From assembly GCA_013823325.1 (NCBI GenBank), contig PNLY01000018.1, positions 1-64,000 on the forward strand: 64,000 bases of DNA, in the 5' to 3' direction. How positions within the stretch are numbered: the stretch's first letter is position 1; each line of letters begins with the position of its first letter. Below are positions 49,413 through 63,897 of the stretch, in pieces. The notes below the pieces were generated by a model. That model ran no database searches. It worked only from the letters and a program-made list of their open reading frames with translations, and was not told where the DNA came from. The DNA comes from Methylobacterium sp. GTDB lineage: Bacteria > Pseudomonadota > Alphaproteobacteria > Rhizobiales > Beijerinckiaceae. The translations under genes and the position numbers were made by a program.

Positions 49413-50354
49413 TTACGCCTTGCGGGGTGCTGACGTCACCAGCCAGATGCCGAGAACGATGATGGCGAAGCCTGCGAAGTGGAACCAGGCGATCTGCTCG
49501 CCGAGCACGATGAAGCCCAGCACCGCGCTGGTCGGCGGCAGGAGGTGCATGAACATCCCCGTCCTGCCGGGGCCGAGCGCCGTAACCGAGCGGTTCCAGA
49601 AGATATAGGCAAGGATCGAGGGGAAGACCGCGAAATAGATCAGCGCGCCGGCGGTCGCCATGGTGAGCCGGAAGCCGCCTTGCGCTGCGTATTCCCAGGC
49701 GACTGCCGGCAAATGGAACAGGACGCCGAAGAACACGGTCATGCCGAGAAATGCCATCGGCGGCAGGCCCGCCGGTCGCCAGCGGATCAGCACGGTGTAC
49801 AGCGCCCAGCAGCTCATGCCGGCGAAGACCAGAATGTCGCCCCGGTTGAGCGCGACGCTCAGAAGCATCCGCGGGTCCCCGCGGCAGATCACCAGAACCG
49901 CGCCGCAGAGCGAGAGCGCGATCCCGGCAAACTGTCGCTGCGTCAGGCCCTGCTTCAGGATCAGATAGGCGAGTGTGAAGGTGACGACGGGGAGGAGGGA
50001 GTTGACCAGTGCCGCATTGGCGACCGGCGTGTAGCGCAGCGCCGCATAGACGAAGCAGTTGAAAGCGGTCACGCCGATCGCGCCGAGCAGTGCGAGGAAC
50101 GGCAGGTTGCTGCGGATGCGCGGCCAGGAGCTGGCGATCGGCCGCCAGCAGAACGGCACAAGGATGAGAAGGGCCAGACTCCAGCGCCAGAACGACATCT
50201 GCACGGGCGGAATGGCTTCGCGCATCAGCCGCGCTATCAGGAAATTGCCCGACCAGAACAATGGCGGAAGCATCGCCAGCCAATAGGCTGCGCGTGGGAC
50301 GCCCGCCTGCTGCTTCGTGGCCGGGATCGTCCCGCCGGCAGGTTCAGTGCGCAT
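49413..50354 (-). CDS. DMT-superfamily transporter (EamA family)
   Basis: A 313-residue membrane protein with ten hydrophobic segments in two EamA repeats (for example FWSGNFLIARLMREAIPP and the second half from GDILVFAGMSCWALYTVLIRW). The family exports or imports small metabolites and amino acids. The ATG at 50354 overlaps the stop of the ABC permease gene by 11 bases, so it is probably the last gene of the aromatic-acid transport operon. It may export excess intermediates. Function not assignable. Confidence 0.87.
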   Translation of the reverse strand: MRTEPAGGTIPATKQQAGVPRAAYWLAMLPPLFWSGNFLIARLMREAIPPVQMSFWRWSLALLILVPFCWRPIASSWPRIRSNLPFLALLGAIGVTAFNCFVYAALRYTPVANAALVNSLLPVVTFTLAYLILKQGLTQRQFAGIALSLCGAVLVICRGDPRMLLSVALNRGDILVFAGMSCWALYTVLIRWRPAGLPPMAFLGMTVFFGVLFHLPAVAWEYAAQGGFRLTMATAGALIYFAVFPSILAYIFWNRSVTALGPGRTGMFMHLLPPTSAVLGFIVLGEQIAWFHFAGFAIIVLGIWLVTSAPRKA

Positions 50355-51156
50355 CCGAGGGGCGCCTGGCGCTGCGCAGCTCGGTGTAGCGTCCGAGCAC
50401 CACATTCACGCCGACGGCCAGGAGGAAGACGACGATCAGCAGGGCATACATGCGCGGCATGTCGAAGGTCGCGTAGGTCTGGATCACGGCGTAGCCGAGC
50501 CCCTGATTGGCGAGTTTGGTCTCGGCCAGCAGCGTGCCGATGATGGCGACGCCGAGCCCGATGCGCAGCCCGTTGATGACCGGTGCGCGCATTGCCGGCA
50601 GGTAGATCTTGGAGATCATCTGGCCGACATTGAGCCGGAAGCTGAGGCCGACCCGGATCAGCACGGTGTCGATCTCGCGCATCGCCGCGGCGACACTGAT
50701 CGCGACCGGAAAGAACGAGGACAGCGCTCCCATCGCGACCTTGGAGCCCGGCCCGACGCCGAACCACATGATCAGCAGCGGGAAGAAGATGATCTTCGGG
50801 GTCGGTCCGAGATAGTGCAGCAGCGGCTCATAGGCGCGCTGCAGGAAGCGGTTGCTGCCGAGCAGGATGCCGACGGCGACTCCGGCGCCGCCGCCGATGA
50901 GGATCGCCAGCGCGACCTCGCCGGCTGTGACGCCGAGATTGGCATAGAAGGTCGGCTCGACCAGGAGATGGGCGAGCGCCCGCATGATGAGCAGCATCGA
51001 CGGCACGACATCGCGATAGAGCAGCCCCGAGCGCGCCGTCACCTCCCAGATCGCCAAGAGCGCCAGGATGATGCCAACCCGGGTCAGCAGAACCGCTCGC
51101 GCCTGGTCCATCCTGGCCGGGCGGCCTCGCGGATGGCCGAGGGTCGTTGTCGTCAT
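50344..51156 (-). CDS. ABC transporter permease, SsuC/TauC type
   Basis: A 270-residue permease of the nitrate/sulfonate/taurine family with six membrane segments and the coupling segment NGLRIGLGVAIIGTLLAETK. It is one of two SsuC-type permeases here; the other is at 54382-55137. It lies beside the SBP (42-base gap) and shares the operon with the decarboxylase. It likely imports phthalate or a related aromatic acid. Confidence 0.88.
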   Translation of the reverse strand: MTTTTLGHPRGRPARMDQARAVLLTRVGIILALLAIWEVTARSGLLYRDVVPSMLLIMRALAHLLVEPTFYANLGVTAGEVALAILIGGGAGVAVGILLGSNRFLQRAYEPLLHYLGPTPKIIFFPLLIMWFGVGPGSKVAMGALSSFFPVAISVAAAMREIDTVLIRVGLSFRLNVGQMISKIYLPAMRAPVINGLRIGLGVAIIGTLLAETKLANQGLGYAVIQTYATFDMPRMYALLIVVFLLAVGVNVVLGRYTELRSARRPSDAH

Positions 51157-51198
51157 CGCGTCGTCACTCCAGCTGGACGAGGCTGTCGATGTGCAGGC

Positions 51199-52164
51199 TC
51201 ACTTGCGCGGCGGAATCTGAATCAGCTCGGCGAGCTGATCCTTGGTCAATGGCTGGGCGGTGTATTTCAGCGCCACCGCATCGGGAACGATGGCGTCGAG
51301 GCCCACGATCTTGTCGGGATCGAGCGCCTCCTTCGGGAAGAAATCGTCCCGCGTGCGCTTGGCGATGGCCTCCGGAATCCCGACGAAATCGGCATAGGCC
51401 TTGATCGCCGCATCGCTGGCATACATCGCGTCGACAGTCTCGCGATAGGCGGCCATGTAGCGATCGATGACCGCCTTCTTGTTCTGGAGCACGCTGGTGT
51501 TGGTGATCAGCAGACGGACCGTCTGGCCTTTGAAGGTCTGGGTGTCGTTGCCGGTCGCGACCACGCGGATTTCGCCCTTGTCGAGCTGAGGCAGGCCAAA
51601 GGGCGGCGCGGCCCAGCCGACATCGATCTGGCCGGACATCACCTGGGTCAGCGTCGGCGCTGGGCCGCCGGTGGCGGTCGGCCGGATCTTGAGGCTGTTC
51701 TCCTTGATGAAGGCGTTGACGACGCCATGGGTCGACGAGCCATTGGTCGAGAACGAGACCGTGTGGTTCTGCAGGTCCTTGAGCGCCTTCACCGGAGAAT
51801 CGCTTTTGACGTACCAGTAGAGGTCCTTCGCCCCGGTGGTCTCGGCGCCGATGATGCGGATCGGCGCGCCCTTCGAATAGGCCGAGAGCGCACCCATGAT
51901 GCCGCCGGCGACGCCGATGTCGACACTGTTGGAGAGCACGGCCTGCTGGGTCTCGCCGCCGCCCTGAGTGTAGAGCATCTCGAGCTCGAGATTGTGCTTC
52001 TTGAAGATGCCAAGCCTCGTGCCGATCTCGGACACCGAGGTATCCCAGTTGCCGCGCTGGCCGATGGCCAGCTTGAGCTTGTCCTGGGCCGTGGCGTCCT
52101 GCGCGATCGAGAGCGCGAAGCCGAGTGCCGCAAGCGTCGACATGACCGTCTTGAACGTCGTCAT
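51199..52164 (-). CDS. ABC transporter solute-binding protein, SsuA/NMT1 type
   Basis: A 321-residue binding protein with a Sec signal peptide (ATAQ-DKLKLAIG). SsuA-like features include RLGIFKKHNLELEMLYTQGG, VDIGVAGGIMGALSAYSKGA and GQIDVGWAAPPFG. The ATG at 52164 is preceded by GGAGGACAGG. It is placed between the 4,5-dihydroxyphthalate-decarboxylase-like gene and a permease, so its ligand is probably phthalate or a precursor. Confidence 0.88.
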   Translation of the reverse strand: MTTFKTVMSTLAALGFALSIAQDATAQDKLKLAIGQRGNWDTSVSEIGTRLGIFKKHNLELEMLYTQGGGETQQAVLSNSVDIGVAGGIMGALSAYSKGAPIRIIGAETTGAKDLYWYVKSDSPVKALKDLQNHTVSFSTNGSSTHGVVNAFIKENSLKIRPTATGGPAPTLTQVMSGQIDVGWAAPPFGLPQLDKGEIRVVATGNDTQTFKGQTVRLLITNTSVLQNKKAVIDRYMAAYRETVDAMYASDAAIKAYADFVGIPEAIAKRTRDDFFPKEALDPDKIVGLDAIVPDAVALKYTAQPLTKDQLAELIQIPPRK

Positions 52165-52261
52165 CCTGTCCTCCCCTGGCGCCAGCTCGGTGTGGCTGGC
52201 CTGTGTCGTCTTGCCTTCGCTTCTGTGGCGAAGTGGAAACTCTCGAGATTGTACGGCTTCC

Positions 52262-53254
52262 TTAGATCTTGAAGGCCTCCAGCGTGCTGGAATGGAAGAG
52301 CTCCTCGACCGCAAGCCGCCGTGAGGACAGGCCCTGGCTATGATGGGCCTGGAGGAACGTCTCCAGCGCATGGCGATTGGGGCCGACACCATAGGACCAG
52401 AAATCCTGGCCCATCAGGGTGCGCGCCGCCTGCAATTGCTCCTCCACGAAGGGCAGCGTGATCTTGGTGGCGGATGTGTCCGAGAGCTTGGCGAGAGCGG
52501 CCGCCTTGGACTGCTCGAAGGCCTTCAGCAATGCGGCCGGCAGCCAGGGCTGGGCCTCGGCGATGCTGCGGCGTACGCACAGCACATGCATGATCGGGAA
52601 GATGCGGGTGCGCCGATAATAGTCCGATGCGGCGGCGGTCGGGTCCGGGAACAGGCGCGCGATCTTCGGGTGACCGGCGTCGAAGGCCGGCGGGGACCGC
52701 GGCCCGATATAGGCGTCGATCTCGCCGGCCATCAGCATCTCGTTGAGCGAGCGGTCGGCCGGCGCCGGCTCGACCGTGATCTCCGGCGGAAGCTCGATAC
52801 TGATCTTCTCGGCGCGGCCCGGCTGCTCCAGACCTCCGCGAACCCAGGTCACCTCGCTTGGCTTCACGCCATAGTCGTTTTCGAGGATGGCGCGGATCCA
52901 GACACAGGCGGTGAGCTGGTATTCCGGGCAGCCGATGCGCTTGCCGCTGAGATCCTCCGGACGAGCGATGCCGCGGTCGGTCCTGATGAAGATGCCGGTG
53001 TGGCGGAACGCGCGCGACAGAAAGGCGGGAACACCGACATAGGGGCTATCGCCACGCGCCGTCTTGAGGGTGAAACTCGACAGCGACGCTTCGCAGACGT
53101 CGAACTCGGCATGGCGGAAGGCGCGGAAGAAAATCTCTTCCGGAACCAGCTTCATGAAGACGGGGTCGACACCGTCGATCTGGACGGCGCCATCGAGCAG
53201 AGGGCGGTTGCGATCATAGTCGCCGATGGCGATGGACAGGCGCAGATCCGACAC
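52262..53254 (-). CDS. pht5: 4,5-dihydroxyphthalate decarboxylase-like protein
   Basis: A 330-residue protein of the type II periplasmic-binding fold family that includes Pht5. Recognisable pieces are LRLSIAIGDYDRNRPLLDG, DVCEASLSSFTLKTARGD, RTDRGIARPEDLSGKRIGCPEYQLTACVWIRAIL and the C-terminal QDFWSYGVGPNRHALETFL. GTG start at 53254 with GGGAGG 6 bases before it. The enzyme decarboxylates 4,5-dihydroxyphthalate to protocatechuate, the last step of the phthalate 4,5-pathway whose other enzymes are at 60279-63897. No signal peptide, so cytoplasmic. Confidence 0.88.
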   Translation of the reverse strand: MSDLRLSIAIGDYDRNRPLLDGAVQIDGVDPVFMKLVPEEIFFRAFRHAEFDVCEASLSSFTLKTARGDSPYVGVPAFLSRAFRHTGIFIRTDRGIARPEDLSGKRIGCPEYQLTACVWIRAILENDYGVKPSEVTWVRGGLEQPGRAEKISIELPPEITVEPAPADRSLNEMLMAGEIDAYIGPRSPPAFDAGHPKIARLFPDPTAAASDYYRRTRIFPIMHVLCVRRSIAEAQPWLPAALLKAFEQSKAAALAKLSDTSATKITLPFVEEQLQAARTLMGQDFWSYGVGPNRHALETFLQAHHSQGLSSRRLAVEELFHSSTLEAFKI

Positions 53255-53287
53255 GCAATTCCTCCCTGCCGGCGCGTCGGGCGCGCC

Positions 53288-53347
53288 CTCATTTTGCGGC
53301 AGAGTGCGCCGCGCCGGGCGGCGGCACAAAGACTTCCGCGAAATGAG
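53288..53347. repeat. Nested inverted repeat between LysR and the decarboxylase gene
   Basis: Outer arms CTCATTTTGCGG (53288-53299) and CCGCGAAATGAG (53336-53347) are inverted with one mismatch. Inside lies a second hairpin formed by CGCCGC and GCGGCG with GTG/CAC outside it. It occupies the leader of the decarboxylase gene. No T-run follows in either direction, so an operator or leader structure is more likely than a terminator. Confidence 0.5.
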
Positions 53348-53375
53348 AACAAGACGCCGCCCGTATGGGAGCGGC

Positions 53376-54362
53376 TCAGGAGCCGACGCGGCGGGCGAGC
53401 GAGCCCAGCGATTCCAGCAGATGTTCGGTGACCGAGGCGAAGAAGCGGTCGACCGCCTCCTGCTGACGGAACGCCGGCGCGTTCCCGGGCCTGATCAGGT
53501 AGAGCGTCCGCTTCGGCGGCTGGTCCGAGATGCGCTGCATCGCGAGCTTGCCGGCGCGCAGCTCCTCGATCGCCGTACCGTAGGGCATGACGCTCGCCGC
53601 CACGCCGCGCACGACGAGCGCGCGCATGGCCGGGACGGATTGCGCCTCATAGACGATGCGCAGCGGCAGCGAGAATTTCTCGGCAGCGGCCTTGAGCAGC
53701 TGCTGGACCATGTCGCGCTCCCCGGCCTGCACGAGATCATGGCTCAGGGCTTCGGCGAGGGTCACCGTCTCCGGCAGCGGCCCATCGGCAATCGGCCGGA
53801 TGAGCACCAGTTCCTCTTCGAACAGAGCCGTCCGCTCGATGCCCGGGCGCGGCTGGTCGACGCCATAGGCAAAGGCGGCGTTCAGCTCGCCGCGCTCCAT
53901 CGCGGCGATGAGCACATGGCTCAGTTCCTCGACCAGGCTGAGCGCGACCGAGGGTATGCCATTCTTGGCGTCGATCAGCAGATCGGGGCCGATCTGGAGC
54001 ATGATGCTCGGCGTCAGCCCGATCGTCAGCATTTCCTGATCGTTCCCGGCCAGTGCCCGAACATCGCGCCTGGCGTCCTCGACCTCCTGCAGAATGCGCC
54101 TTGCACGCTCCAGCAGCAGCTCGCCCGCCTGCGTCAGCACGACGCCGCGCGAATGGCGCAGCAGAAGTTCCGTCTGGAGGGTCTGCTCGAGCTGCCGGAT
54201 CTGCAAGCCCAGGGCAGGTTGCGCGACGTTGAGCTGCTCCGCCGCCTTGGTGATGTTCCCGACCTCGGCGATTCCGACGAAATAGCGAAGCTGACGGAGA
54301 TTGATCGCGGCCTCCCGGGCTTGTCTTCTTGGAAGGTCATGATGGGGTGCGCCGGCAGCCAC
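53376..54362 (-). CDS. LysR-family transcriptional regulator, start uncertain
   Basis: A LysR protein with HTH GNITKAAEQLNVAQPALGLQ and an effector domain (LTIGLTPSIMLQ). The conserved N-terminus INLRQLRYFVGIAEV corresponds to the usual M-N-L-R-Q-L start, but its first codon is ATC, with GGGAGG 5 bases before it. No ATG is in frame; GTG at 54362 adds 19 residues and is used here. It lies in the middle of the phthalate ABC operon, between a permease and the decarboxylase, and probably regulates it in response to an aromatic acid. Confidence 0.85.
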   Translation of the reverse strand: MAAGAPHHDLPRRQAREAAINLRQLRYFVGIAEVGNITKAAEQLNVAQPALGLQIRQLEQTLQTELLLRHSRGVVLTQAGELLLERARRILQEVEDARRDVRALAGNDQEMLTIGLTPSIMLQIGPDLLIDAKNGIPSVALSLVEELSHVLIAAMERGELNAAFAYGVDQPRPGIERTALFEEELVLIRPIADGPLPETVTLAEALSHDLVQAGERDMVQQLLKAAAEKFSLPLRIVYEAQSVPAMRALVVRGVAASVMPYGTAIEELRAGKLAMQRISDQPPKRTLYLIRPGNAPAFRQQEAVDRFFASVTEHLLESLGSLARRVGS

Positions 54363-54381
54363 GACAAGGCGCGGCTTCCCG

Positions 54382-55137
54382 CTAGCGCCCGGGCCGGAGC
54401 CAGCGCTCCATACGTTCTAGCACCGCGAAAATGACGACGCTGACGAGGATGACGAAGACGATTGTCGCGAAGACGCCGGCGAGGTCGTAGCGCTCCGCGA
54501 GATCGTTGATCAACTGGCCGAGCCCGCCGAAATTGATCAGGAACTCGACGCCGATCAGATTGATCAGCGCGAAGACGAGCCCGAGGCGAACGCCGACGAA
54601 AATGGTCGGGATGGCCGCCGGGAATTCGATCTTCCAGAATTGCTGCGCGGGCGTGAGATTGTAGCTCAGCCCGACATTGATCAGGCTCTTCCTGACGCCC
54701 TTCAGCCCTTCCAGCGTCTTGAGTATGACCGGAGCGAGCCCGGCCACGAAGCCCATCGCGATGATCGTGGCGGCGCTGCGCCCGAAGATGACGAGGAAAA
54801 GCGGGTAGGCCAGCACCACTGGGGCGGCGGCCACAGCCGCCACCCAGGGTTCGGTCGCGAGTGCCAGGATCCGGACCTTGTAGAGCAGCACCCCGAGCGA
54901 GATGCCGGCGACCGAGACGAGGACGCTTGCGGCCAGCGCCTCGCTGCCTGTCATCATCAGCCGTTCCAGCAACTGTTCCTCGGCGAACAGCCGGCCGAAG
55001 CTGCCGAGCACCGCCGAGGGCAATGGGATGACGAATTGGTTGAGGAGGCCGAGCAGCAGCAGGGTCTCGACCACTCCCAGGGCGAGGCCGACCGTGGCAA
55101 GGCCGATCGCAAGCGGAGGAATCGCAGCGAGCCGCAT
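54382..55137 (-). CDS. ABC transporter permease, SsuC/TauC type (second)
   Basis: A 251-residue permease with six membrane segments and coupling region PTIFVGVRLGLVFALINLIG. It starts 3 bases after the ATPase stop. It is only distantly similar to the permease at 50344-51156; the two could form a heterodimer, or each a homodimer using the same ATPase and SBP. Confidence 0.88.
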   Translation of the reverse strand: MRLAAIPPLAIGLATVGLALGVVETLLLLGLLNQFVIPLPSAVLGSFGRLFAEEQLLERLMMTGSEALAASVLVSVAGISLGVLLYKVRILALATEPWVAAVAAAPVVLAYPLFLVIFGRSAATIIAMGFVAGLAPVILKTLEGLKGVRKSLINVGLSYNLTPAQQFWKIEFPAAIPTIFVGVRLGLVFALINLIGVEFLINFGGLGQLINDLAERYDLAGVFATIVFVILVSVVIFAVLERMERWLRPGR

Positions 55138-55140
55138 GGC

Positions 55141-56025
55141 TCAAGCCTTCCTGCGGCGGGCGCCCGCCTCGGATTCGGCCATGCCGCGCGAGGCTTCCTC
55201 GCGCAGATCGTTCCAGATCTCGGCGACATGGCGGCCGAAGGCCTCGCTGCCGACGACGTCGCCCGTGCGCGGCCGTGGCAGCCGGATGTCGACGATGCGC
55301 TTCACCTTGCCGGGACGGAAGGTCATGATGATGACCCGGTCGGAGAGCTGCACGGCCTCGGTGATGTTGTGAGTGATCAGCAGGGTGGTCTGCTTCAGCT
55401 CCTCCTGAATTTTCAGGACCTTGTCGCCGAGCAGCAGGCGGGTCTGCTCGTCCAGCGCGGCGAAGGGCTCGTCCATCAGCAGGATCTTGGGCTCGAACAC
55501 CAGCGTGCGGGCAATGGCGACGCGCTGGCGCATGCCGCCGGATAGCTCGGCGGGGTAGCGCTGCTCGAAGCCGTTCAGGCCGACCATGTCGATGAAGTGC
55601 CGCGCCTTCTCGTGGCGCTCGGCCTTGCGCACGCCCTTGACCTCGAGCGGAAAGGCGACGTTGTCGAGCACCGTCCGCCAGGGAAAGGTCGATTCCTCCT
55701 GGAAGACCATGCCGATCGACGGATGCGGGCCCGAGATCAGGTCGCCGCCGACGTTGACCTTGCCCTCGTAGCCGCGCACCAGCCCGCCCAGGATGTTGAA
55801 GACGGTCGACTTGCCACATCCCGACGGGCCGATGATCGAGACGAACTCGCCGCGTTCGACCGAGAACGACATGTCGTCCACGGCAGTGACGGCGCCCTCG
55901 CGCGTCTCGAAGCGCATCGTCACGCCGTCGATGACCAGGTCGGCCTCCTTCACGGTCTCGGCAAGACGCAGTTTGGCGGCCGCAGCGGGCATTGTGTGCT
56001 CATCCCTTGGCTGGCCGTCACTCAT
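55141..56025 (-). CDS. ABC transporter ATPase, SsuB/TauB type
   Basis: A 294-residue ATPase: Walker A GPSGCGKST, Q-loop MVFQEESTFPWRT, signature LSGGMRQRVAIART, Walker B ILLMDEPFAALDEQT and switch ITHNITEA. The FPWRT after the Q-loop and GGMRQR signature are typical of nitrate/sulfonate/taurine importers. First gene of the minus-strand transport operon, divergent from marR. An internal ATG at 55992 is a possible later start. Confidence 0.9.
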   Translation of the reverse strand: MSDGQPRDEHTMPAAAAKLRLAETVKEADLVIDGVTMRFETREGAVTAVDDMSFSVERGEFVSIIGPSGCGKSTVFNILGGLVRGYEGKVNVGGDLISGPHPSIGMVFQEESTFPWRTVLDNVAFPLEVKGVRKAERHEKARHFIDMVGLNGFEQRYPAELSGGMRQRVAIARTLVFEPKILLMDEPFAALDEQTRLLLGDKVLKIQEELKQTTLLITHNITEAVQLSDRVIIMTFRPGKVKRIVDIRLPRPRTGDVVGSEAFGRHVAEIWNDLREEASRGMAESEAGARRRKA

Positions 56026-56201
56026 CGCCTCGCCCCTTGTGCAACTGCGCCAGCAGTTGAACGGCGCGCAGCACGAACGCGCCTGAAGCGGCGGAGGCCC
56101 GACTGAGTCGGCGGCATGTCATCCTTCCCTCGCGCAGCCGTCTTCGTTGGAGTCCGCAGCCTACGCAGCCGCCACGTTAGTGACGCGGCGCAGGCAAGGT
56201 C

Positions 56202-56214
56202 CAAGATTATCTTG
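56202..56214. promoter_or_regulatory. Palindrome between the ABC operon and marR
   Basis: CAAGAT-T-ATCTTG is a 13-base palindrome in the AT-rich part of the divergent region. It shares AGAT/ATCT with the perfect palindrome at 61659-61674, so the MarR protein may bind here as well. The spacing differs by one base. Confidence 0.45.
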
Positions 56215-56296
56215 CTTGGCCAGTCAAACTTTTCAGGATGGGCAGGTCGGGCGGGCTATCGGGGGCACAATTGCCGCCTATATTTGGCCGGTCCAG

Positions 56297-56815
56297 ATGT
56301 TCGGAGACAAGGCGATCGTGGCGACGACAGGCGACGAGGACGGTGGGCTGCCCGAAATGGCGCACGACCTGCCGTTCGAGAGCAGTGTTGGCTACCAGCT
56401 GCGGATGGCGAACCGTGCGACCCAGCGCTATCTGCAGAGCAAGATCGAGCCGCACGGCGTCACCACCGGCATGTGGTATTTCCTGCGCGCACTCTGGCAA
56501 GAAGATGGGCTGACCCAGCGCGAATTGTCCCGCCGGATCGGCACCATGGAGCCGACGACGCTGGCCGCATTGGCCGCCATGGAGAAGGCTGGCCTGATCA
56601 GCCGCGAGCGCGACCTGCATGACCGGCGAAAGCTGCATGTGCTGCTGACGCCGAAGGGCCATACGCTCAAGGGCGAGCTCCTGCCGCTGGCGCAGGAGGT
56701 CGTCCACAAGGCGACGGCCGGTTTCACGCCGGAGGACAAGGCCCGTTTCCTTGGCTATCTCGCGGCAGTCCAGCGCAATCTCGCAGATGTGCCTGATCCT
56801 GATGAGGCTGTCTGA
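56297..56815 (+). CDS. MarR-family transcriptional regulator
   Basis: A 172-residue MarR protein. The winged helix is GLTQRELSRRIGTMEPTTLA, the wing RERDLHDRRKLHVLLTPKG. Helix 1 begins near SSVGYQLRMANRATQRYLQ. Starts at 56297 (MFGDKAIV) or 56357 (MAHDLPFE) are both possible; upstream sequence is not conserved-looking. MarR proteins in aromatic catabolism are usually repressors released by the aromatic acid or its CoA ester. Likely targets are the palindromes at 56202-56214 and 61659-61674. Confidence 0.88.
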   Translation: MFGDKAIVATTGDEDGGLPEMAHDLPFESSVGYQLRMANRATQRYLQSKIEPHGVTTGMWYFLRALWQEDGLTQRELSRRIGTMEPTTLAALAAMEKAGLISRERDLHDRRKLHVLLTPKGHTLKGELLPLAQEVVHKATAGFTPEDKARFLGYLAAVQRNLADVPDPDEAV

Positions 56816-56827
56816 GCAGTTTCTCGG

Positions 56828-58615
56828 TCAGCCCTTCGGCGCTTGCCCGGCATGGCGCGTCATGCCGGCGGCCATCGCCGGGTTGTAGCCTGGCATGACC
56901 CGGGCATCGATCAGCACCGACGCGCCGGCCCTGGCTGCCTTCACGGCCTCGGCGACCGCGTCACGCAGGGCAGCGACTGTCCGGACCGGGCCGATGCCTG
57001 TGAGACCTTGGGCCCTGGCGATCGCGGCGATGTCGATGTCTGGCTCGTCGATGCGTTGGCCGATCCATTTGTTCTCGACAGGGCGCTGGCGCTGCTTCGC
57101 AACGCGCTCCTGATGGATCTCGTCATTGTAGAAGGAGCGGTTGTTCGAGACGATCGCGACGAAGGGCAGCTTGTAATGCGCTGCCGTCCACAGAGCGGAG
57201 GCAGCCATCATGGTGTCGCCGTCGCCCAGAACCGCCACCGGGAGCCGGCCCGAGCCCTTGAGCGCCAGCGCCGCGCCGATCAGCATGCCCGGCCCCGAGC
57301 CGATGCCGGCTCCACCATCGATGCCGAGATAGTCGAGCGGGTGCCGGAAATGCCAGGCCTCGGTGGCCCAGCCGAGCGGCAGGCGAACCAGGCTGATCAC
57401 CTCCTCGCGCAGCGCCTCGCCCATGGCTGCGGCGAGCGAAACGACGTCCAGCGGGCGCCCGCCGTCGAAGCTCAGCACCGGCAAGGCGGGGAGGATGGCC
57501 GGCGCTGAGCCGAGGGCGGCTCCCAGCTCGTCGGCGATCAGGTGCATGGTCGCATCGGGATCGGCGGCGAGATGGAGATCGGCCGGCGCGAGCGCCTGGT
57601 GATCCATGCTCCAGCCATTGTGCAGATGGTGGTCCAGCGAGACGCTGATCACGCGGGCCGACAGGGCGCTATCGGCCTGGCGCAGGGTGCCGCCGAGATC
57701 GACCCAGTCGAAGGCGAGGATGACGTCGGCGGCGCGGATGGTGTCGACCGCCTGCGCATCAAGGAAGAAGGACGGCTTGGCCGCGTGCAGCGGGTGGTCG
57801 GTCGGGAAGACGGCTGCGGTCTTGATGTCCGTGACGACGGCAGCGCCGAGATGCTCGGCCAGCGCGACGCGGCGGCCCCAGTCGCTTTCCGAGCGCGACA
57901 TCCGGCCGAACAGGATGAGCGGCGTCTTCGCATTACGAAGCAGCCCCGCCACCCGGTCGATCTCGGCGGCGGCGGGAACGCTTGGCGAGGCCACGGCAAA
58001 GCGCTTCGGGTCAGGGAGAAGCGGCATTTCCTCGAGCCGCTTCTCCTGCATCGAGACATCGAGGCAGACATAGGTCGGGGCCTGCGGTGCGCTGCGCGTG
58101 AGATTGCTCGCGCGGATCAGCGAGTCGATCGTGGCCGCCACGGAGACGGGCTGATCGTCCCATTTGACATAGGGGCGGATCAGGGCGCCCTGGTCCTTGG
58201 CGGTATGCAGCCAGTCGATCCAGGGCCTGCGCTCGGCCGCGTCGACCGGGCCGGTCGCGCCGAGGATCAGCATCGGCACGCGATCGCACCAGGCGTTGTA
58301 GATCGCCATCACCCCATGCATCAGGCCGACATTGCTGTGCAGGATGACGCCCATCGGCTTGCCCGTCACCTTGGCATAGCCATGGGCCACGGCGACGGCA
58401 TGCTCCTCATGCAGACACAGCAGCATCTGCGGTTGCTGGTTACCGAGATGGTTGACGAGGCTGTCGTGCAGGCCGCGGAAGCTGGAGCCGGGGTTCAGCG
58501 CGAGATAGGGGATGTCGAGCGCCCGAAGCATCTGCGCGACAACATCGCTCCCCCAGATGCCGTTGTCACTCGACGCGACGGGCACATCGATACCGGACAG
58601 CGTCAGGTCGTTCAT
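56828..58615 (-). CDS. Thiamine diphosphate-dependent decarboxylase, benzoylformate decarboxylase-like
   Basis: A 595-residue ThDP enzyme with the three domains of the pyruvate decarboxylase family. The catalytic Glu70 lies in LHEEHAVAVAHGYA; NPGSS (Ser44/45) and ILHSNVG (His93) correspond to Ser26 and His70 of benzoylformate decarboxylase; the ThDP motif GDGDTMM ends with NN about 29 residues on. ATG 58615 has GGGGAAA 5 bases before it. The aromatic-acid context suggests decarboxylation of an aryl 2-oxoacid such as phthalonate (2-carboxybenzoylformate) to an aldehyde, but acetolactate-synthase-like activities cannot be excluded. Confidence 0.87.
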   Translation of the reverse strand: MNDLTLSGIDVPVASSDNGIWGSDVVAQMLRALDIPYLALNPGSSFRGLHDSLVNHLGNQQPQMLLCLHEEHAVAVAHGYAKVTGKPMGVILHSNVGLMHGVMAIYNAWCDRVPMLILGATGPVDAAERRPWIDWLHTAKDQGALIRPYVKWDDQPVSVAATIDSLIRASNLTRSAPQAPTYVCLDVSMQEKRLEEMPLLPDPKRFAVASPSVPAAAEIDRVAGLLRNAKTPLILFGRMSRSESDWGRRVALAEHLGAAVVTDIKTAAVFPTDHPLHAAKPSFFLDAQAVDTIRAADVILAFDWVDLGGTLRQADSALSARVISVSLDHHLHNGWSMDHQALAPADLHLAADPDATMHLIADELGAALGSAPAILPALPVLSFDGGRPLDVVSLAAAMGEALREEVISLVRLPLGWATEAWHFRHPLDYLGIDGGAGIGSGPGMLIGAALALKGSGRLPVAVLGDGDTMMAASALWTAAHYKLPFVAIVSNNRSFYNDEIHQERVAKQRQRPVENKWIGQRIDEPDIDIAAIARAQGLTGIGPVRTVAALRDAVAEAVKAARAGASVLIDARVMPGYNPAMAAGMTRHAGQAPKG

Positions 58616-58690
58616 GGCGTTTCCCCGCATGGATTTTAGAACGACGACGCACCAGCTGCCTGGGCAGCGATTGCGATCGTCCCTGAAGCG

Positions 58691-60154
58691 TCAGCCCGGC
58701 AACTTCAGGCTGACATGGATATTCTTTTCCTGGGTGAAGGCGATGAGCTCGCCGAGGCACTCCTCGCGGCCGATGCCCGACTGCTTCCAGCCGCCGAAGG
58801 GCGTGCCCAGGAAATGCTTGGCGACCTCGTTGACCCAGACGAAGCCGGCCTCCGCCGCCAGCGCGGTGCGGTGCGCCTTGACGAGGTCATTGGTCCAGAT
58901 CGAGCAGGTCAGCCCGTATTCGACGCTGTTGACCGTCTCCAGCATCTGGGCCTCGTCGCTCCAGGGCATGACCGAGAGAACCGGGCCGAATATCTCTTCG
59001 CGCGCGATTCGCATCTGCGGCGTCACGTCGGCGAAGATCGTCGGCTCGATATAGAATCCCCCGCCGAGCCTGGGATCGTCAGGCACGCGGCCGCCACAGA
59101 CCAGCCTCGCACCCTCAGCCTTCGCCGAGGCGATGAAATCGAGAATGCGGTCATGCTGGTTCGCACTGACGATCGCGCCCATGGTCGTGGCCTCGTCCGT
59201 GGGAATGCCGGGCACGAAGCCGGACAGCTTTTCCGGCAGCCGGGCGAGCACGGCGTCGTAGATGTCGCGGTGGATGAAGGCCCGGCTGGTCGAGCCGCAG
59301 GACTGGCCGCACCAGGTGAAGTTCATGCCGGCGACGACTGCGGCGGCGACCCGCGCCGGATCGGCGTCGGCGAAGGCGATCAGCGCGTTTTTGCCACCGA
59401 GCTCCAGCAGCACCGGCTTGATCGTGTCGCTCGCCGCCTTCATCACGGCGCGGCCGGCCTGGACGCTGCCGATGAGCGCGACCTTGTCGACGCCTGGATG
59501 GGAGGCGAGGGCGGTCCCCGCTTCCCGCCCGCCGGGCACGACGCTGAGGACGCCCTCCGGCAGCAGGCCGCCGATGAGCTCGGCCAGTCTGAGCGAGGAC
59601 AGCGGCGCCTGCTCCGGCGGCTTGATGATGACGGCGTTGCCGGCGGCCAGCGGAGCCGCCATCTTGCCGGCGCAGAACATGAAGGGGTGGTTGAAGGCGA
59701 GGATGCGGGCGACGACGCCGAGCGGCTGGCGCACCGTGAGGTTGATTGCATCGGGGCCCATTGGAATGGTGTCGCCCTTCATCTCGGTGACGAGGCCGCC
59801 GAAGAAGTCGAGCTGTGCCGCGGCTATACCGGCGTCACCGATCATCTCGCGCACCGGATTGCCGCAATTGGCGGCGTCGAGCGCGGCGAGTTCGCGGGCA
59901 TTGTCGCGGACGACAGCCGCAATCGCCTTGAGGATGCGCCCACGCTCCAGAGGCGGCACCTGGCGCCACATCCTGAAACCCGCCCGCGCCGCTGCGACCG
60001 CAGCGTCGATATCGGCTGCGGAGGCCTCCGCGACATCGCAGATGGGCTCGTTCGTGCCGGGGTTGAGCGTCGCGACATAGCGTCCCGACAGCGGATGGCG
60101 CCAGCTTCCGCCGATATAGAGGCTGCGGCCGGTCGGCGCGGGCTTGTCGAGCAT
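58691..60154 (-). CDS. NAD(P)-dependent aldehyde dehydrogenase
   Basis: A 487-residue ALDH. The catalytic set is Asn155 (FNHP), Glu251 (LELGGKN) and Cys286 (GQSCGSTSR); the C-terminal GTPFGGWKQSGIGRE is typical of betaine- and aromatic-aldehyde dehydrogenases. It is encoded 75 bases upstream of the ThDP decarboxylase on the same strand. It would oxidise the aldehyde that enzyme produces, for example 2-carboxybenzaldehyde to phthalate, the substrate of the neighbouring oxygenase. ATG 60154 is chosen over a frame extension of 21 residues. Confidence 0.9.
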   Translation of the reverse strand: MLDKPAPTGRSLYIGGSWRHPLSGRYVATLNPGTNEPICDVAEASAADIDAAVAAARAGFRMWRQVPPLERGRILKAIAAVVRDNARELAALDAANCGNPVREMIGDAGIAAAQLDFFGGLVTEMKGDTIPMGPDAINLTVRQPLGVVARILAFNHPFMFCAGKMAAPLAAGNAVIIKPPEQAPLSSLRLAELIGGLLPEGVLSVVPGGREAGTALASHPGVDKVALIGSVQAGRAVMKAASDTIKPVLLELGGKNALIAFADADPARVAAAVVAGMNFTWCGQSCGSTSRAFIHRDIYDAVLARLPEKLSGFVPGIPTDEATTMGAIVSANQHDRILDFIASAKAEGARLVCGGRVPDDPRLGGGFYIEPTIFADVTPQMRIAREEIFGPVLSVMPWSDEAQMLETVNSVEYGLTCSIWTNDLVKAHRTALAAEAGFVWVNEVAKHFLGTPFGGWKQSGIGREECLGELIAFTQEKNIHVSLKLPG

Positions 60155-60278
60155 GGCTGGTCTCACGGCAGGGGTGCGCTCGGCGCGAACACTCGCGCAC
60201 GCACAGGCTGCGTTCAAAGACTTTCCCGCTTTGGCCGCGATGCCGAAAAACTACTTCGCAGTTGCGAGACGTCGCCGG

Positions 60279-61613
60279 CTAGCCCCGAGCAGCGGCCATC
60301 TCGGCTTCGGTCTCGTCCTGCTCCATCCCGTCGAGCACAGCGACCTCCTCGCTCGATGCGCCGAGCTTGCGCCAGTCCTCGCTCTTGGGAACGATGCCCT
60401 GATAGGAGCGCAGCTTGGCCTGCGGGATATGCGGCTCGATGAGGCCGATGGGCTCGCTGCCTGCGGCGTGCTTGCGCGCAGCATCGATCATCACGCGGCG
60501 GAACTGAACGATGGCGATGTCGCTGGCGCCCAGGCGCTCGCTGGTGCGATCCGCGATCGGCCCCATCGATTCCCACATCATGATGTCCTGGTTCGGAATC
60601 CCCGGGACGCCGGTGAAGTCACCGAGCTTCATCGCCTTGCGGTCCTGCAGATAATTGTTCGCCTTGTGGCGCAGCATCGGCTTGTAGGTCTTGTCGAGAT
60701 CAATGCCGACCTGCGCGACGCAGAACTTGCGCCAGCTCTCCTGGTCGATGCAGTCGTCATTGCCCCAGGCGATGAAGTGGAAGTAGCTGGATACATCGTC
60801 CTTGGGCACGATCACCGTGGCGACGTTGTAGGAGGAATTCGGCGGGATCAGCGCCGCGAAGGGCGCGACGAAGACCGTCAGCCGGATGTAGTCATGCGTC
60901 TGCGCGTTGACGATCGGCCGCCGGATCGCGGCATAGCGGAAGCCGTAATTGGTCAGCTGAACCTGGATTCGCGGATTCTTGTCGGTCGATGGCCGCGTCC
61001 AGTGTGTCGCGGTCGTGCCCGCCGTGGTCACGCGGGCGGGCTTCATGTCGGATGAGTGCAGGCTGGAGGAATGGGCGGAATCGATCTGCCCTTCCATGAT
61101 CTGCGCCCAGTTGCACGGCAGGTCGATCTTCACGATCGAGACCTTGGCCTCCGGCGTCGGAGCCCAGGCCGGTGGCTCGAACTCCGGCATCAGCTCCTTC
61201 GGCCCCATATAGACCCAGATGAATCCGCCGGCTTCTTCAGTCGGATAGGCCTTATGCTGGACCTTCTCGGCGAAGCCGCTTTCGGCCGGCTCCGAGACCA
61301 TCTCCAGCACCTTGCCGTCCACGTCGAACTTCCAGCCGTGGTAGAGGCAGCGCAAACCGCATTCCTCGTTGCGCCCGAAGAACAACGAGGCCTTGCGGTG
61401 CGGGCAGAACTCGCCGAGCACGCCGATACGCCCGTCGGTGTCGCGGAAGGCGACGAGATCCTCGCCGAAGAGCCGGACGCGAACCGGCGCACCATCGCTC
61501 TCGACCAACTGCTCCGAGAGCAGCGCCGGTATCCAATGTCGCCGCATCAGCCCGCCCATGGGGGTGTCGCCTTCGACGCGGCAGAGCAATTCGTTCTCTT
61601 CACGGGTGAGCAT
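60279..61613 (-). CDS. pht3: Rieske non-heme iron oxygenase, phthalate 4,5-dioxygenase oxygenase component-like
   Basis: A 444-residue ring-hydroxylating oxygenase. Rieske cluster ligands Cys70/His72 (FCPHR) and Cys89/His92 (RCLYHGW); mononuclear iron ligands in DSAHSSSLHSS (Asp178, His181, His186). The opening LTREENELLCRVEGDTPMGG resembles phthalate 4,5-dioxygenase. It adds O2 to phthalate to give the cis-4,5-dihydrodiol. ATG 61613 is preferred: GGGAGGG lies 6 bases before it, while the ATG at 61619 would directly abut that sequence. Divergent from its reductase, with a shared operator. Confidence 0.9.
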   Translation of the reverse strand: MLTREENELLCRVEGDTPMGGLMRRHWIPALLSEQLVESDGAPVRVRLFGEDLVAFRDTDGRIGVLGEFCPHRKASLFFGRNEECGLRCLYHGWKFDVDGKVLEMVSEPAESGFAEKVQHKAYPTEEAGGFIWVYMGPKELMPEFEPPAWAPTPEAKVSIVKIDLPCNWAQIMEGQIDSAHSSSLHSSDMKPARVTTAGTTATHWTRPSTDKNPRIQVQLTNYGFRYAAIRRPIVNAQTHDYIRLTVFVAPFAALIPPNSSYNVATVIVPKDDVSSYFHFIAWGNDDCIDQESWRKFCVAQVGIDLDKTYKPMLRHKANNYLQDRKAMKLGDFTGVPGIPNQDIMMWESMGPIADRTSERLGASDIAIVQFRRVMIDAARKHAAGSEPIGLIEPHIPQAKLRSYQGIVPKSEDWRKLGASSEEVAVLDGMEQDETEAEMAAARG

Positions 61614-61658
61614 GCGCATCCCTCCCAAACTGCGGCACGGGCTAGTCAACGGCAAATT

Positions 61659-61674
61659 ACTTAGATATCTAAGT
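61659..61674. promoter_or_regulatory. Perfect palindromic operator between oxygenase and reductase genes
   Basis: ACTTAGATATCTAAGT is a perfect 16-base palindrome in the 114-base divergent region, AT-rich in GC-rich surroundings. Size and symmetry suit a MarR-family dimer, and a marR gene is in the cluster. It lies 46 bases from the oxygenase start and 54 from the reductase start. Confidence 0.72.
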
Positions 61675-61727
61675 GTATGATTAGTCCGGTTCGAAACGCT
61701 TGTCGAGAGCGGCTCGCGGAGGGGAAC

Positions 61728-62687
61728 ATGACCGAGGAAGCAGCGACCATCAGGGTCACGATCGCGGACAAGCAGATGGTCGCGGAGGACATCTGCCTGT
61801 TCGAGCTGCGCCCGGCCGACGGGGAGGCGCTGGCACCGTTTACGCCCGGCGCCCATCTCGGCGTCAGGGTCCCCTCTGGCGAGATGCGGAAATACTCGCT
61901 CTGCAACGACCCCGGCGAGGCCGATCACTATGTCATCGCCGTCAAGAAGGAGCTCGGCGGGCGTGGCGGCTCGATCAGCCTGATCGACAGAACGCATGTC
62001 GGCGACGAGATCGCGATCACGGCGCCCCGCAACGACTTCGCGCTGAAGCCGGGTCCGTCTAGCTACATCTTCATCGCCGGCGGCATCGGCATCACGCCGA
62101 TCCGGGCCATGATCAGGCATCTGCTGGCGACACGGGCAAAGCCGTTCAGGCTCTACTACTTCACGCGCAGCCCGGAGATGATGGCCTTCCGGGACGAGTT
62201 CCTGACGCCGGAATTCCGCGGCAGAGTGGTGATCCACCATGACGGCGGCGATCCGGACAAGGCCTATGATCTCTGGCCGATCCTGGAGGAGCCGAAAGGG
62301 GCCCATCTCTATTGCTGCGGGCCGCGCGGATTGATGGAGGCGGTGCGCGACATGACCGGGCACTGGTCCTCGGCCGCCGTGCATTTCGAGGATTTCGGCG
62401 CGACCAGGGCTCGGCCGGAAGACAATGCGCCGTTCACGGTCGTGCTGGCGAAAAGCGGCGAGCGCTTCAAAGTGCCGGCCGACAAGTCGATCCTGGAGCG
62501 GCTGCGTGAGGCCGGCAAGGTGCTGCCTTCATCCTGCGAAAGCGGCACCTGCGGAACCTGCCGGACTCGGCTCGTCTCGGGAGAGCCCGACCATCGCGAT
62601 CTGGCGCTGGCCGAGCATGAGCGTGCCCGCAACATCATGATCTGCGTGTCGCGGGCGAAGTCCGCCGAACTCGTGCTCGACCTTTAG
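61728..62687 (+). CDS. pht2: Phthalate dioxygenase reductase-like (FMN, NADH, plant-type 2Fe-2S)
   Basis: A 319-residue electron-transfer protein: an FMN-binding domain (GAHLGVRVPSGEMRKYSLCN), an NADH-binding domain (FIAGGIGITPIRAMIRHL; YCCGPRGLM), and a C-terminal plant-type 2Fe-2S domain with Cys270, Cys275, Cys278 and Cys306 (CESGTCGTC...C). This FMN-NAD-ferredoxin order is that of phthalate dioxygenase reductase. ATG 61728 follows GAGGGG. It passes electrons from NADH to the Rieske oxygenase encoded divergently. Confidence 0.92.
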   Translation: MTEEAATIRVTIADKQMVAEDICLFELRPADGEALAPFTPGAHLGVRVPSGEMRKYSLCNDPGEADHYVIAVKKELGGRGGSISLIDRTHVGDEIAITAPRNDFALKPGPSSYIFIAGGIGITPIRAMIRHLLATRAKPFRLYYFTRSPEMMAFRDEFLTPEFRGRVVIHHDGGDPDKAYDLWPILEEPKGAHLYCCGPRGLMEAVRDMTGHWSSAAVHFEDFGATRARPEDNAPFTVVLAKSGERFKVPADKSILERLREAGKVLPSSCESGTCGTCRTRLVSGEPDHRDLALAEHERARNIMICVSRAKSAELVLDL

Positions 62688-62697
62688 GATCCCTGCG

Positions 62698-63897
62698 ATG
62701 AGTGAGCCGCTACGTCTTGGTATCGTCGGATTGGGACGCGCCTTCATGTTGATGCTGCCAACCCTGGCGCATCACCCCCTCGTGCGGCTCGTCGCCGCCG
62801 CCGATCCGCGCGAGGAGGCGCGCTGGCAGTTCGAGAGCGACTTCTCCCGGGCGGATGCGCCGGCGCGCAGCTATGACAACGTCGAGGAACTCTGCGCCGA
62901 CGACGGGGTCGAGGCGCTCTACATCGCTTCCCCGCACCAGTTCCATGTCGCCCATGTCCGCCTCGCTGCGACCCATGGCAAGCATGTCCTCGTCGAGAAG
63001 CCGATGGCGCTGACCATCGCCGACTGCCAGGCGATGATCGAAGCGGCCCATGCCGCCGGAGTGCATCTCCTCGTTGGGCACAGCCATTCCTACAATGCGC
63101 CATATCTCAAGGCGTCGGAGCTGATCCGCTCGGGTCGCTTCGGCCGGGCCCGGATGATCACGGCCTCGAACCACACCGATTTCCTCTACCGGCCGCGCCG
63201 GCCGGAAGAGCTCGACACCGCGCAGGGCGGCGGCGTCGTGTTCAGCCAGGGTGCCCATCAGGTCGATATCGCCCGGCTGCTGGGCGGCGGGCTGGTCTCG
63301 ACGGTGCGGGCCACCACAGGCCGGTTCGATCCGGCGCGCCCTACGGAAGGCGCCTACCAGGCGCTCCTGGTTTTCGCGGACGGAGCCAGCGCGACGCTGA
63401 CCTATAGCGGCTATGGTCGCTATGACAGCGACGAGCAACTCGGCTGGATCGGCGAGATGGGCCAGCGGCGCGATCCCGAGAGTTATGGCATGGCGCGTCG
63501 CGGATTGGTCGGGGTCTCGACGCCGGAGGAGGAGGCCGCGCTCAAGAACACCCGTACCTATGGCGTGGCCAAGAACTCCGTGGCGCCGCTGTCGGCCGCT
63601 CTCGGGCACAATCATTTCGGCCCGATCACGGTCTGCTGCGAGCAGGCCGACCTTCGTCCGCTCGCCAGCGGCGTGATGGTCTATGCCGACGACCGCCGCT
63701 GGCTGGAGGCGCTGCCGGCGCCGACCGTGCCGCGTGCCGAGGTCGTCGACGAGCTCTATGCCGCCATCCGATCCGGCATTGCACCATTACACTCCGGCGC
63801 ATGGGGCATGGCGACCCTTGAGGTCTGCCTCGCGATGCTGGAATCGGCGCGAACCGGCCGCGAGATCGCGCTCCAGCACCAGCTCGCGCCGGGCTGA
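62698..63897 (+). CDS. pht4: Gfo/Idh/MocA oxidoreductase, 4,5-dihydro-4,5-dihydroxyphthalate dehydrogenase-like
   Basis: A 399-residue NAD(P)-dependent oxidoreductase. Rossmann motif LGIVGLGRAFMLML at the N-terminus, ASPHQFHVAHVRLAATHGKH, VEKPMAL (lysine of the family's EKP motif) and FSQGAHQVDIARLLGGG. GRAF and SPHQFH resemble the phthalate dihydrodiol dehydrogenase Pht4. It would oxidise the cis-4,5-dihydrodiol of phthalate to 4,5-dihydroxyphthalate, the substrate of the decarboxylase at 52262. It starts 10 bases after the reductase stop, with AGGAT upstream, in one operon. Confidence 0.9.
   Translation: MSEPLRLGIVGLGRAFMLMLPTLAHHPLVRLVAAADPREEARWQFESDFSRADAPARSYDNVEELCADDGVEALYIASPHQFHVAHVRLAATHGKHVLVEKPMALTIADCQAMIEAAHAAGVHLLVGHSHSYNAPYLKASELIRSGRFGRARMITASNHTDFLYRPRRPEELDTAQGGGVVFSQGAHQVDIARLLGGGLVSTVRATTGRFDPARPTEGAYQALLVFADGASATLTYSGYGRYDSDEQLGWIGEMGQRRDPESYGMARRGLVGVSTPEEEAALKNTRTYGVAKNSVAPLSAALGHNHFGPITVCCEQADLRPLASGVMVYADDRRWLEALPAPTVPRAEVVDELYAAIRSGIAPLHSGAWGMATLEVCLAMLESARTGREIALQHQLAPG

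Follow-up and report, generated by a model that had tools for sequence, protein, structure and literature searches.

Genes at the locus

We analyzed the first 64,000 nucleotides (the window) of contig PNLY01000018.1, from a Methylobacterium sp. assembly of 6.03 Mb in 234 contigs. A single catabolic neighborhood spans positions 49413–63897. It holds genes for the phthalate 4,5-pathway together with genes for a thiamine diphosphate (ThDP)-dependent enzyme and an aldehyde dehydrogenase (ALDH). An original prediction, made from the DNA letters alone, held that this pair feeds the pathway by turning an aryl 2-oxo acid such as phthalonate into phthalate. All of the genes that it named are present where it had placed them.

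The ThDP enzyme gene (56828–58630, minus strand) encodes 600 residues with three TPP_enzyme Pfam domains, and its best matches in the PDB are benzoylformate decarboxylases (BFDCs). It is a candidate 2-oxo-acid decarboxylase, which we propose acts on phthalonate. The PhdK-like ALDH gene (58691–60154, minus; Aldedh, 497 bits; likely start, the ATG at 60154) is proposed to encode a 2-carboxybenzaldehyde dehydrogenase. Next to it lies the gene for a Rieske oxygenase (60279–61613, minus; Rieske and LigXa_C Pfam domains). Together the three form a minus-strand run from 56828 to 61613, with gaps of about 124 bp between Rieske and ALDH genes and 60 bp between ALDH and ThDP genes. On the plus strand lie an oxygenase reductase gene (61725–62687; FAD_binding_6, NAD_binding_1 and a 2Fe-2S Fer2 domain) and a gene for a Gfo/Idh dihydrodiol dehydrogenase (62698–63897; 475 bits to PDB 7wzd, "4,5-dihydroxyphthalate dehydrogenase"). 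A Pht5-like 4,5-dihydroxyphthalate decarboxylase gene (52262–53254, minus) lies 3.6 kb from the run. Its open reading frame opens at 53329, with a likely GTG start at 53254, and its product closely matches a solved enzyme (443 bits to PDB 9jp7). This last gene had also been predicted and is borne out, even though it falls outside the 56828–63897 range to which the prediction was tied.

For the Rieske, Gfo/Idh and decarboxylase proteins, the best PDB match is a solved phthalate-pathway enzyme. The Rieske protein, a phthalate 4,5-dioxygenase (PhtA/Pht3), scores 589.5 bits over nearly its full length against 7fjl, which we take to be the Comamonas testosteroni KF1 enzyme. In the Comamonas phthalate dioxygenase, as described in the retrieved text of PMC12445078, phthalate is held by S182, R207 and R244, and I256 matters for dioxygenation. 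In 7fjl, S, R, R and I stand at 182, 207, 244 and 256, in agreement with that numbering, and alignment to 7fjl shows that the window protein keeps all four. In the 40 PhtA rows compared (those of the window and of fetched relatives with at least 400 residues), the first three are kept in 40 of 40; I256 is kept in 37, with valine in the other three. The query used (60279–61571) began 14 residues downstream of the likely start, which leaves these positions unaffected. At the level of protein sequence, the phthalate-gene identities are convincing.

The ThDP enzyme

The family scores place the ThDP enzyme nearest to the BFDCs among characterized enzymes. Its best NCBIfam model is the uncharacterized NF006203 (PRK08327, thiamine pyrophosphate-requiring protein) at 207.9 bits, under the cut-off of 456. 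The BFDC model NF005485 follows at 145.7 bits (cut-off 493), and acetolactate synthase models reach at most 107 bits among the 25 of 49 families listed. No sulfopyruvate family is among the listed matches. BFDCs also lead a single-sequence search of the PDB (best 87 bits), and a 47-row profile gives 135 bits to a BFDC, the best acetolactate synthase reaching 96. The closest relatives of solved structure are therefore BFDCs, ahead of acetolactate synthases, and the outcome that the original prediction had named as refuting it, acetolactate or sulfopyruvate enzymes as nearest relatives, did not arise. On family and profile scores together we reject an acetolactate-type or sulfopyruvate-type enzyme.

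The catalytic residues of BFDC are Ser26, His70 and His281, and its pocket is hydrophobic at L110, A460 and L461. We compared these positions across 89 aligned ThDP enzymes (the window, 81 from contig loci and seven from plasmids). The enzyme shares the three-domain ThDP architecture with BFDC, and both E75, the equivalent of BFDC Glu47, and the GDGD...NN motif are invariant. The original prediction had seen the Ser/His pattern of BFDC in this protein. That description holds for H98, the His70 equivalent, which is present in 89 of 89 rows, and for S49 of the window enzyme, which aligns with Ser26. It fails in that the Ser26 position is serine in 40 rows and alanine in 49, and in that the aligned enzyme has no histidine opposite His281.

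The pocket differs as well. H142, N502 and D503, which in an alignment read by eye stand opposite L110, A460 and L461, are invariant in all 89 rows. R134, R135 and H506 are invariant too, the BFDC F464 region aligning ambiguously, off by one residue, with H506/Q507. The pocket thus looks polar where the BFDC lining is largely hydrophobic, which fits a substrate with a second carboxylate, without proving one. The BFDC motif cannot serve as a sign of the substrate, as had been supposed, since its serine is not conserved in the family and the pocket differs. On cut-off, Ser/His residues and pocket together we reject membership of BFDC, and the enzyme seems to represent a separate decarboxylase family.

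In the same alignment, serine is found at position 49 or at position 420 and seldom at both: A49 with S420 in 44 rows, S49 with G420 in 34, serine at both in five, at neither in five, and serine with alanine in one. This exchange suggests that residues 49 and 420 face the same active site.

A ThDP enzyme of this kind might also work as a lyase or carboligase, of the benzaldehyde-lyase or 2-hydroxyacyl-lyase type, and arrive at 2-carboxybenzaldehyde, or at some other aldehyde, through a different C–C cleavage. Benzaldehyde lyase and 2-hydroxyacyl-CoA lyase are indeed among the weaker PDB matches, and the frequent alanine at the Ser26 position and the polar aligned pocket residues would suit such an enzyme. 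However, BFDCs score higher with both single sequence and profile, no CoA ligase is listed in 11 annotated plasmid stretches, and enzymes that oxidize 2-hydroxyacids, encoded in some sister clusters (see below), fit a 2-oxo-acid substrate. We consider a lyase decidedly unlikely.

The ALDH offers less by way of family assignment. It falls under the cut-off of each NCBIfam model listed, the best being betaine-aldehyde dehydrogenase at 448 against a cut-off of 669. Its predicted action on 2-carboxybenzaldehyde comes from gene context: in 40 of 91 loci the ThDP gene has an ALDH relative of at least 40% identity as its same-strand neighbor.

Linkage of the ThDP gene to phthalate genes

A search for relatives yielded 443 encoding stretches, of which the best 80 loci were kept by their likeness to the window; Bosea and Boseaceae genomes are the nearest named relatives among those fetched. 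Within 10 kb of the ThDP gene, 38 of the 80 loci and 34 of the 63 long loci (at least 15 kb) have a PhtA of at least 55% identity. Any one of PhtA, Gfo/Idh or decarboxylase (40% or more) is present in 42 of the 80. In 45 linked loci, plasmids included, the median ThDP–PhtA distance is 4.3 kb and there are 19 arrangements, some cut by contig ends. All six genes are found in 37 linked loci, in 11 different gene orders.

Because the 80 loci were picked by likeness to the window, counts over whole genomes weigh more. Within the genus, 14 of 67 genomes contain PhtA, in every case with a ThDP orthologue 1.6–2.5 kb away. The orthologue (76–100% identity) occurs in 15 genomes, the fifteenth (G033) having it on a 5.6-kb contig; a looser threshold raises the count to 21 of 67. 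The Fisher p value for co-occurrence is 1.5e-13, to be taken, like those that follow, as a guide only because the genomes are related. At the level of the order, where the first three to five candidates per genome were scored and misses are possible, 397 genomes hold PhtA in 10, the ThDP gene in 17 and both in seven, six of these within 4.5 kb (p = 7e-9; 1.2e-7 without the window genome). Three of these PhtA genomes (G251, G315 and G362) have no ThDP match, so the phthalate pathway seems to work without the ThDP enzyme, as a feeder would predict. Scored in the same way, 300 genomes of the Burkholderiales, the order of the genome with the Cupriavidus locus (G465), hold PhtA in nine, the ThDP gene in 23 and both in six (p = 7e-5 without the centre genome).

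A tree of the 89 ThDP rows places the window in a 31-row clade (support 94 by a quick method), in which 29 rows are linked to pht genes and two are cut by contig ends. Across the whole tree the link state changes at least 12 times. The presence of the ThDP gene beside pht genes is no local accident.

Could the two sets be functionally unrelated, the pair serving, for example, true benzoylformate or mandelate use and merely sharing an aromatic-catabolism island with pht? Pht genes are missing within 10 kb of the ThDP gene in 27 of the 63 long loci, and Pigmentiphaga, Burkholderia and Cupriavidus loci hold ThDP–ALDH pairs without them. Of the genomes or records in which the ThDP gene has no PhtA nearby, we tested 24 (18 of those 27 long loci, three other loci and three plasmid records), and 17 of them have PhtA at 56% identity or more elsewhere. 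With this, the several gene orders, the distant taxa and the strong co-occurrence also set against it, coincidental neighborhood has only a slim chance of being correct.

The ThDP rows of three loci, from Rhodobacter, Salipiger and Pseudooceanicola (L049, L050 and L051), are identical, and that of Pararhodobacter (L046) is nearly so. Recent spread by transfer is therefore likely. In a Hyphomicrobiales clade (L055, L059, L061, L068, L069, L073, L074 and L092), the ThDP gene is part of an ABC operon of the NMT1 type, together with an Amidohydro_2 gene and a gene resembling molybdenum aldehyde oxidases; both genomes tested (L055 and L059) have PhtA elsewhere.

Neighbors in sister clusters

Some sister clusters carry genes for enzymes that oxidize 2-hydroxyacids. 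Three of 11 plasmid loci opened (L109, L117 and L120) have both an alpha-hydroxy-acid oxidase and a 2-hydroxyacid dehydrogenase. Plasmids of Phaeobacter, Salipiger and Thioclava carry ALDH, nadC and ThDP genes, the 2-hydroxyacid dehydrogenase coming directly after ThDP. With them are MarR, a TRAP transporter, Rieske, alpha-hydroxy-acid oxidase, reductase, Gfo/Idh, pca genes and a Pht5-like gene annotated as an ABC substrate-binding protein. The oxidase also occurs in plasmid loci of Rhizobium (L110) and Acidovorax (L114). Among contig loci, the dehydrogenase is found in three Bosea-type loci and one Geobacter bin (L033, L036, L039 and L048); oxidase matches are distant in L091 and adjacent but weaker (34%) in L065. 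By analogy, the oxidase and dehydrogenase would be the makings of a mandelate-like route. The public record CP031591, of a Marinibacterium plasmid, labels the ThDP gene mdlC beside phdK, pht3, ophA1, pht4 and pht5.

Other genes recur near the ThDP gene. nadC, for quinolinate phosphoribosyltransferase, lies inside ThDP–pht clusters in four of the 63 long contig loci and four of the 11 plasmid loci (L037, L063, L071, L093, L109, L117, L118 and L120); phthalate resembles quinolinate, and a spare, phthalate-tolerant NadC is thus a possible reason. A citrate-synthase-like gene is near the ThDP gene in 18 mostly betaproteobacterial loci (among them L045, L047, L048, L062, L063, L070 and L071), with or without pht. 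Plasmid pCAR3 of Novosphingobium sp. KA1 (L111) has a ThDP–ALDH pair in the vicinity of genes for a ring-hydroxylating dioxygenase, an ABM-type monooxygenase and a TonB receptor; a PhtA-like gene (56%) lies some 27 kb from the pair.

In six loci (L101, L107, L113, L075, L076 and L077), the ThDP and ALDH genes stand with a class II aldolase and a phenol-hydroxylase-like flavin adenine dinucleotide (FAD) enzyme. The aldolase of L101 scores 81 bits to the 3,4-dihydroxyphthalate decarboxylase PhtC, under the cut-off of 200. These loci are perhaps a branch for hydroxylated phthalates, for which such an aldolase and FAD enzyme are expected. They bear on the reading that the chemistry is as proposed and the main substrate another one: a ring-substituted phthalonate (hydroxy- or alkyl-, from oxidized naphthoquinones) or another ortho-substituted aryl 2-oxo acid, with phthalonate minor. 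That echinochrome A, a naphthoquinone, oxidizes in air to a phthalonic acid derivative, which then loses CO2 to give a formylbenzoic acid, according to the retrieved text of PMC7587531, would suit this reading. Against it, the window PhtA keeps the plain-phthalate residues, and the window has nothing that matches the class II aldolase or the FAD enzyme. We regard a different main substrate as unlikely.

Proposed feeder route

In the route that we propose, the ThDP enzyme would decarboxylate phthalonate (2-carboxybenzoylformate), or a closely related aryl 2-oxo acid bearing an ortho carboxylate, yielding 2-carboxybenzaldehyde, which the adjacent ALDH would oxidize to phthalate. PhtA, the reductase, the dihydrodiol dehydrogenase and the 4,5-dihydroxyphthalate decarboxylase would then take phthalate to protocatechuate. 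In some sister clusters, the flavin mononucleotide (FMN) alpha-hydroxy-acid oxidase and the 2-hydroxyacid dehydrogenase would supply the 2-oxo acid by oxidizing 2-carboxymandelate, just as MdlB oxidizes mandelate.

We put the probability that the ThDP–ALDH pair is a feeder module for the phthalate 4,5-pathway at roughly 60%. The reading is strengthened by three lines of evidence: the conserved linkage, the 2-hydroxyacid-oxidizing genes of sister clusters, and the growth on 2-carboxybenzaldehyde of a strain with the phdK–pht cluster (see below). On these it is the best fit, and to that extent the feeder predicted at the outset survives; the support once drawn from the BFDC motif does not.

Several observations weigh against it. 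The ThDP enzyme is under the cut-off of every one of the 25 NCBIfam models listed and is far from characterized BFDCs by both PDB scores given above, with the Ser26 equivalent not conserved and the His281 equivalent missing. The 27 long loci without a nearby pht gene count here as well, as do five of 21 tested genomes without any PhtA at 56% or more. In the Burkholderiales only one of the six pairs (G529) is within 10 kb, while two more genomes have both genes on the same contig at distances of 27 and 38 kb, and in the Hyphomicrobiales clade no ALDH relative is found near the ThDP gene. Among the 63 long contig loci the dehydrogenase occurs in only four and an oxidase match in two, making the 2-hydroxyacid extension a minority feature outside plasmids. 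We found no match to either sister-cluster gene in the window or in the 2.6 kb that follow it. The only full FMN_dh protein of the assembly is 41% identical, lies at a contig edge and was not counted, and 2-hydroxyacid dehydrogenase genes as such are common in the assembly (16 matches over the cut-off). Finally, phthalonate has no established natural source.

Naphthoquinones are a plausible natural source, given the phthalonic acid derivative formed from echinochrome A. Lawsone was considered and rejected, as the retrieved text of the one paper found (PMC5533781) routes it via salicylate. A broader proposal, which we hold tentatively and at somewhat less than even odds, is a widespread and partly plasmid-borne "carboxymandelate pathway". 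In it 2-carboxymandelate would pass to phthalonate by an FMN oxidase or NAD dehydrogenase, to 2-carboxybenzaldehyde by the new ThDP decarboxylase family, and to phthalate by aldehyde oxidation. Such a pathway might serve the breakdown of naphthoquinone-type and oxidized polycyclic compounds in soils and seas, beyond plasticizers alone.

If the feeder module is real, it would name a substrate for an uncharacterized ThDP enzyme family and account for the ALDH in pht clusters of distant bacteria, such as Thalassospira without phdI and phdJ. It would also suggest that phthalate catabolism serves natural oxidized naphthalenes besides plasticizers.

Regulators and transporters

A gene for a MarR-family regulator, start uncertain, lies next to the ThDP gene (56147–56815, plus strand; MarR Pfam), and relatives are present in 27 of the 80 contig loci. 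The remaining genes are on the minus strand. An ABC transporter ATPase of the taurine/nitrate type by family and Pfam matches (55141–56025), whose gene adjoins the ThDP gene in same-genus relatives, is joined by a permease (54382–55137; BPD_transp_1), a second permease (50344–51156; BPD_transp_1) and an NMT1-like substrate-binding protein (51199–52392; domain match to an open reading frame, start uncertain). This ABC system probably imports the acid. Domain matches also identify a LysR-family regulator (open reading frame 53376–54362, start uncertain) and an EamA-type transporter (49413–50405); EamA genes recur in linked loci. The contig extends 2.57 kb beyond the window, and no further pathway gene was recognized there. 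A tRNA-Arg (tct) at contig positions 65293–65369, about 1.4 kb past the cluster end, is a possible island attachment site.

Comparison with known systems

The original prediction knew of no described cluster that joins a ThDP decarboxylase to pht genes. Part of the system is in print. A phdK–pht cluster has been published for Thalassospira sp. GO-4, Roseovarius indicus and Rhodobium orientis DSM 11290, and the retrieved text adds that GO-4 grows on 2-carboxybenzaldehyde and that phdI and phdJ were not found in Thalassospira (PMC9604089). Like the window, that cluster has an ALDH beside pht3, pht2, pht4 and pht5 and a MarR regulator; it has a TRAP transporter where the window has an ABC transporter (PMC9604089). 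Two of our loci, L038 (Rhodobium orientis DSM 11290) and L037 (a Thalassospira), have the ThDP gene beside the cluster, and the ALDH of L037 shares about 50% identity with that of the window. The published phdK–pht cluster is the same system as that of the window.

What stands of the claim is that the ThDP link goes undiscussed in the papers found, CP031591 already labeling mdlC beside phdK and pht genes. The retrieved text of PMC9604089, which treats 2-carboxybenzaldehyde as a phenanthrene intermediate, contains, outside its figures, where the ThDP gene may be drawn, none of the terms thiamin, benzoylformate, phthalon, TPP, mdlC or acetolactate. Our searches of open-licence PMC literature found neither a bacterial phthalonate decarboxylase nor a discussion of the ThDP–pht link. 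The terms phthalon-, carboxybenzaldehyde, formylbenzo- and thiamin- are absent from the retrieved portion of a 2026 review of phthalate degradation (PMC13040137), and that of a paper on SAR202 (PMC6946804) has "benzoylformate decarboxylase" and "phthalate", the two not joined.

In the phenanthrene route of Nocardioides KP7 (PhdI, PhdJ and PhdK), 2-carboxybenzaldehyde is likewise oxidized to phthalate, but the aldehyde comes from the aldolase PhdJ, not from a ThDP decarboxylase (retrieved text of PMC9604089). The window shares its oxygenase, reductase, dihydrodiol dehydrogenase and decarboxylase with the Pht2–5 pathway of Comamonas testosteroni KF1 and adds the feeder ThDP–ALDH pair.

The mandelate pathway of Pseudomonas putida (MdlB, MdlC and MdlD) converts a 2-hydroxy acid to a 2-oxo acid, an aldehyde and an aromatic acid in turn. 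The window resembles it in pairing a ThDP decarboxylase with an ALDH, under the same logic of oxidation and decarboxylation. It differs in that the ThDP enzyme is under the BFDC cut-off and in that the MdlB-like oxidase of sister clusters has no match in the window. The proposed substrates would carry an extra ortho carboxylate, and the product would enter phthalate rather than benzoate catabolism. Mandelate-style decarboxylation would thus be joined to phthalate catabolism through a ThDP family that is not BFDC.

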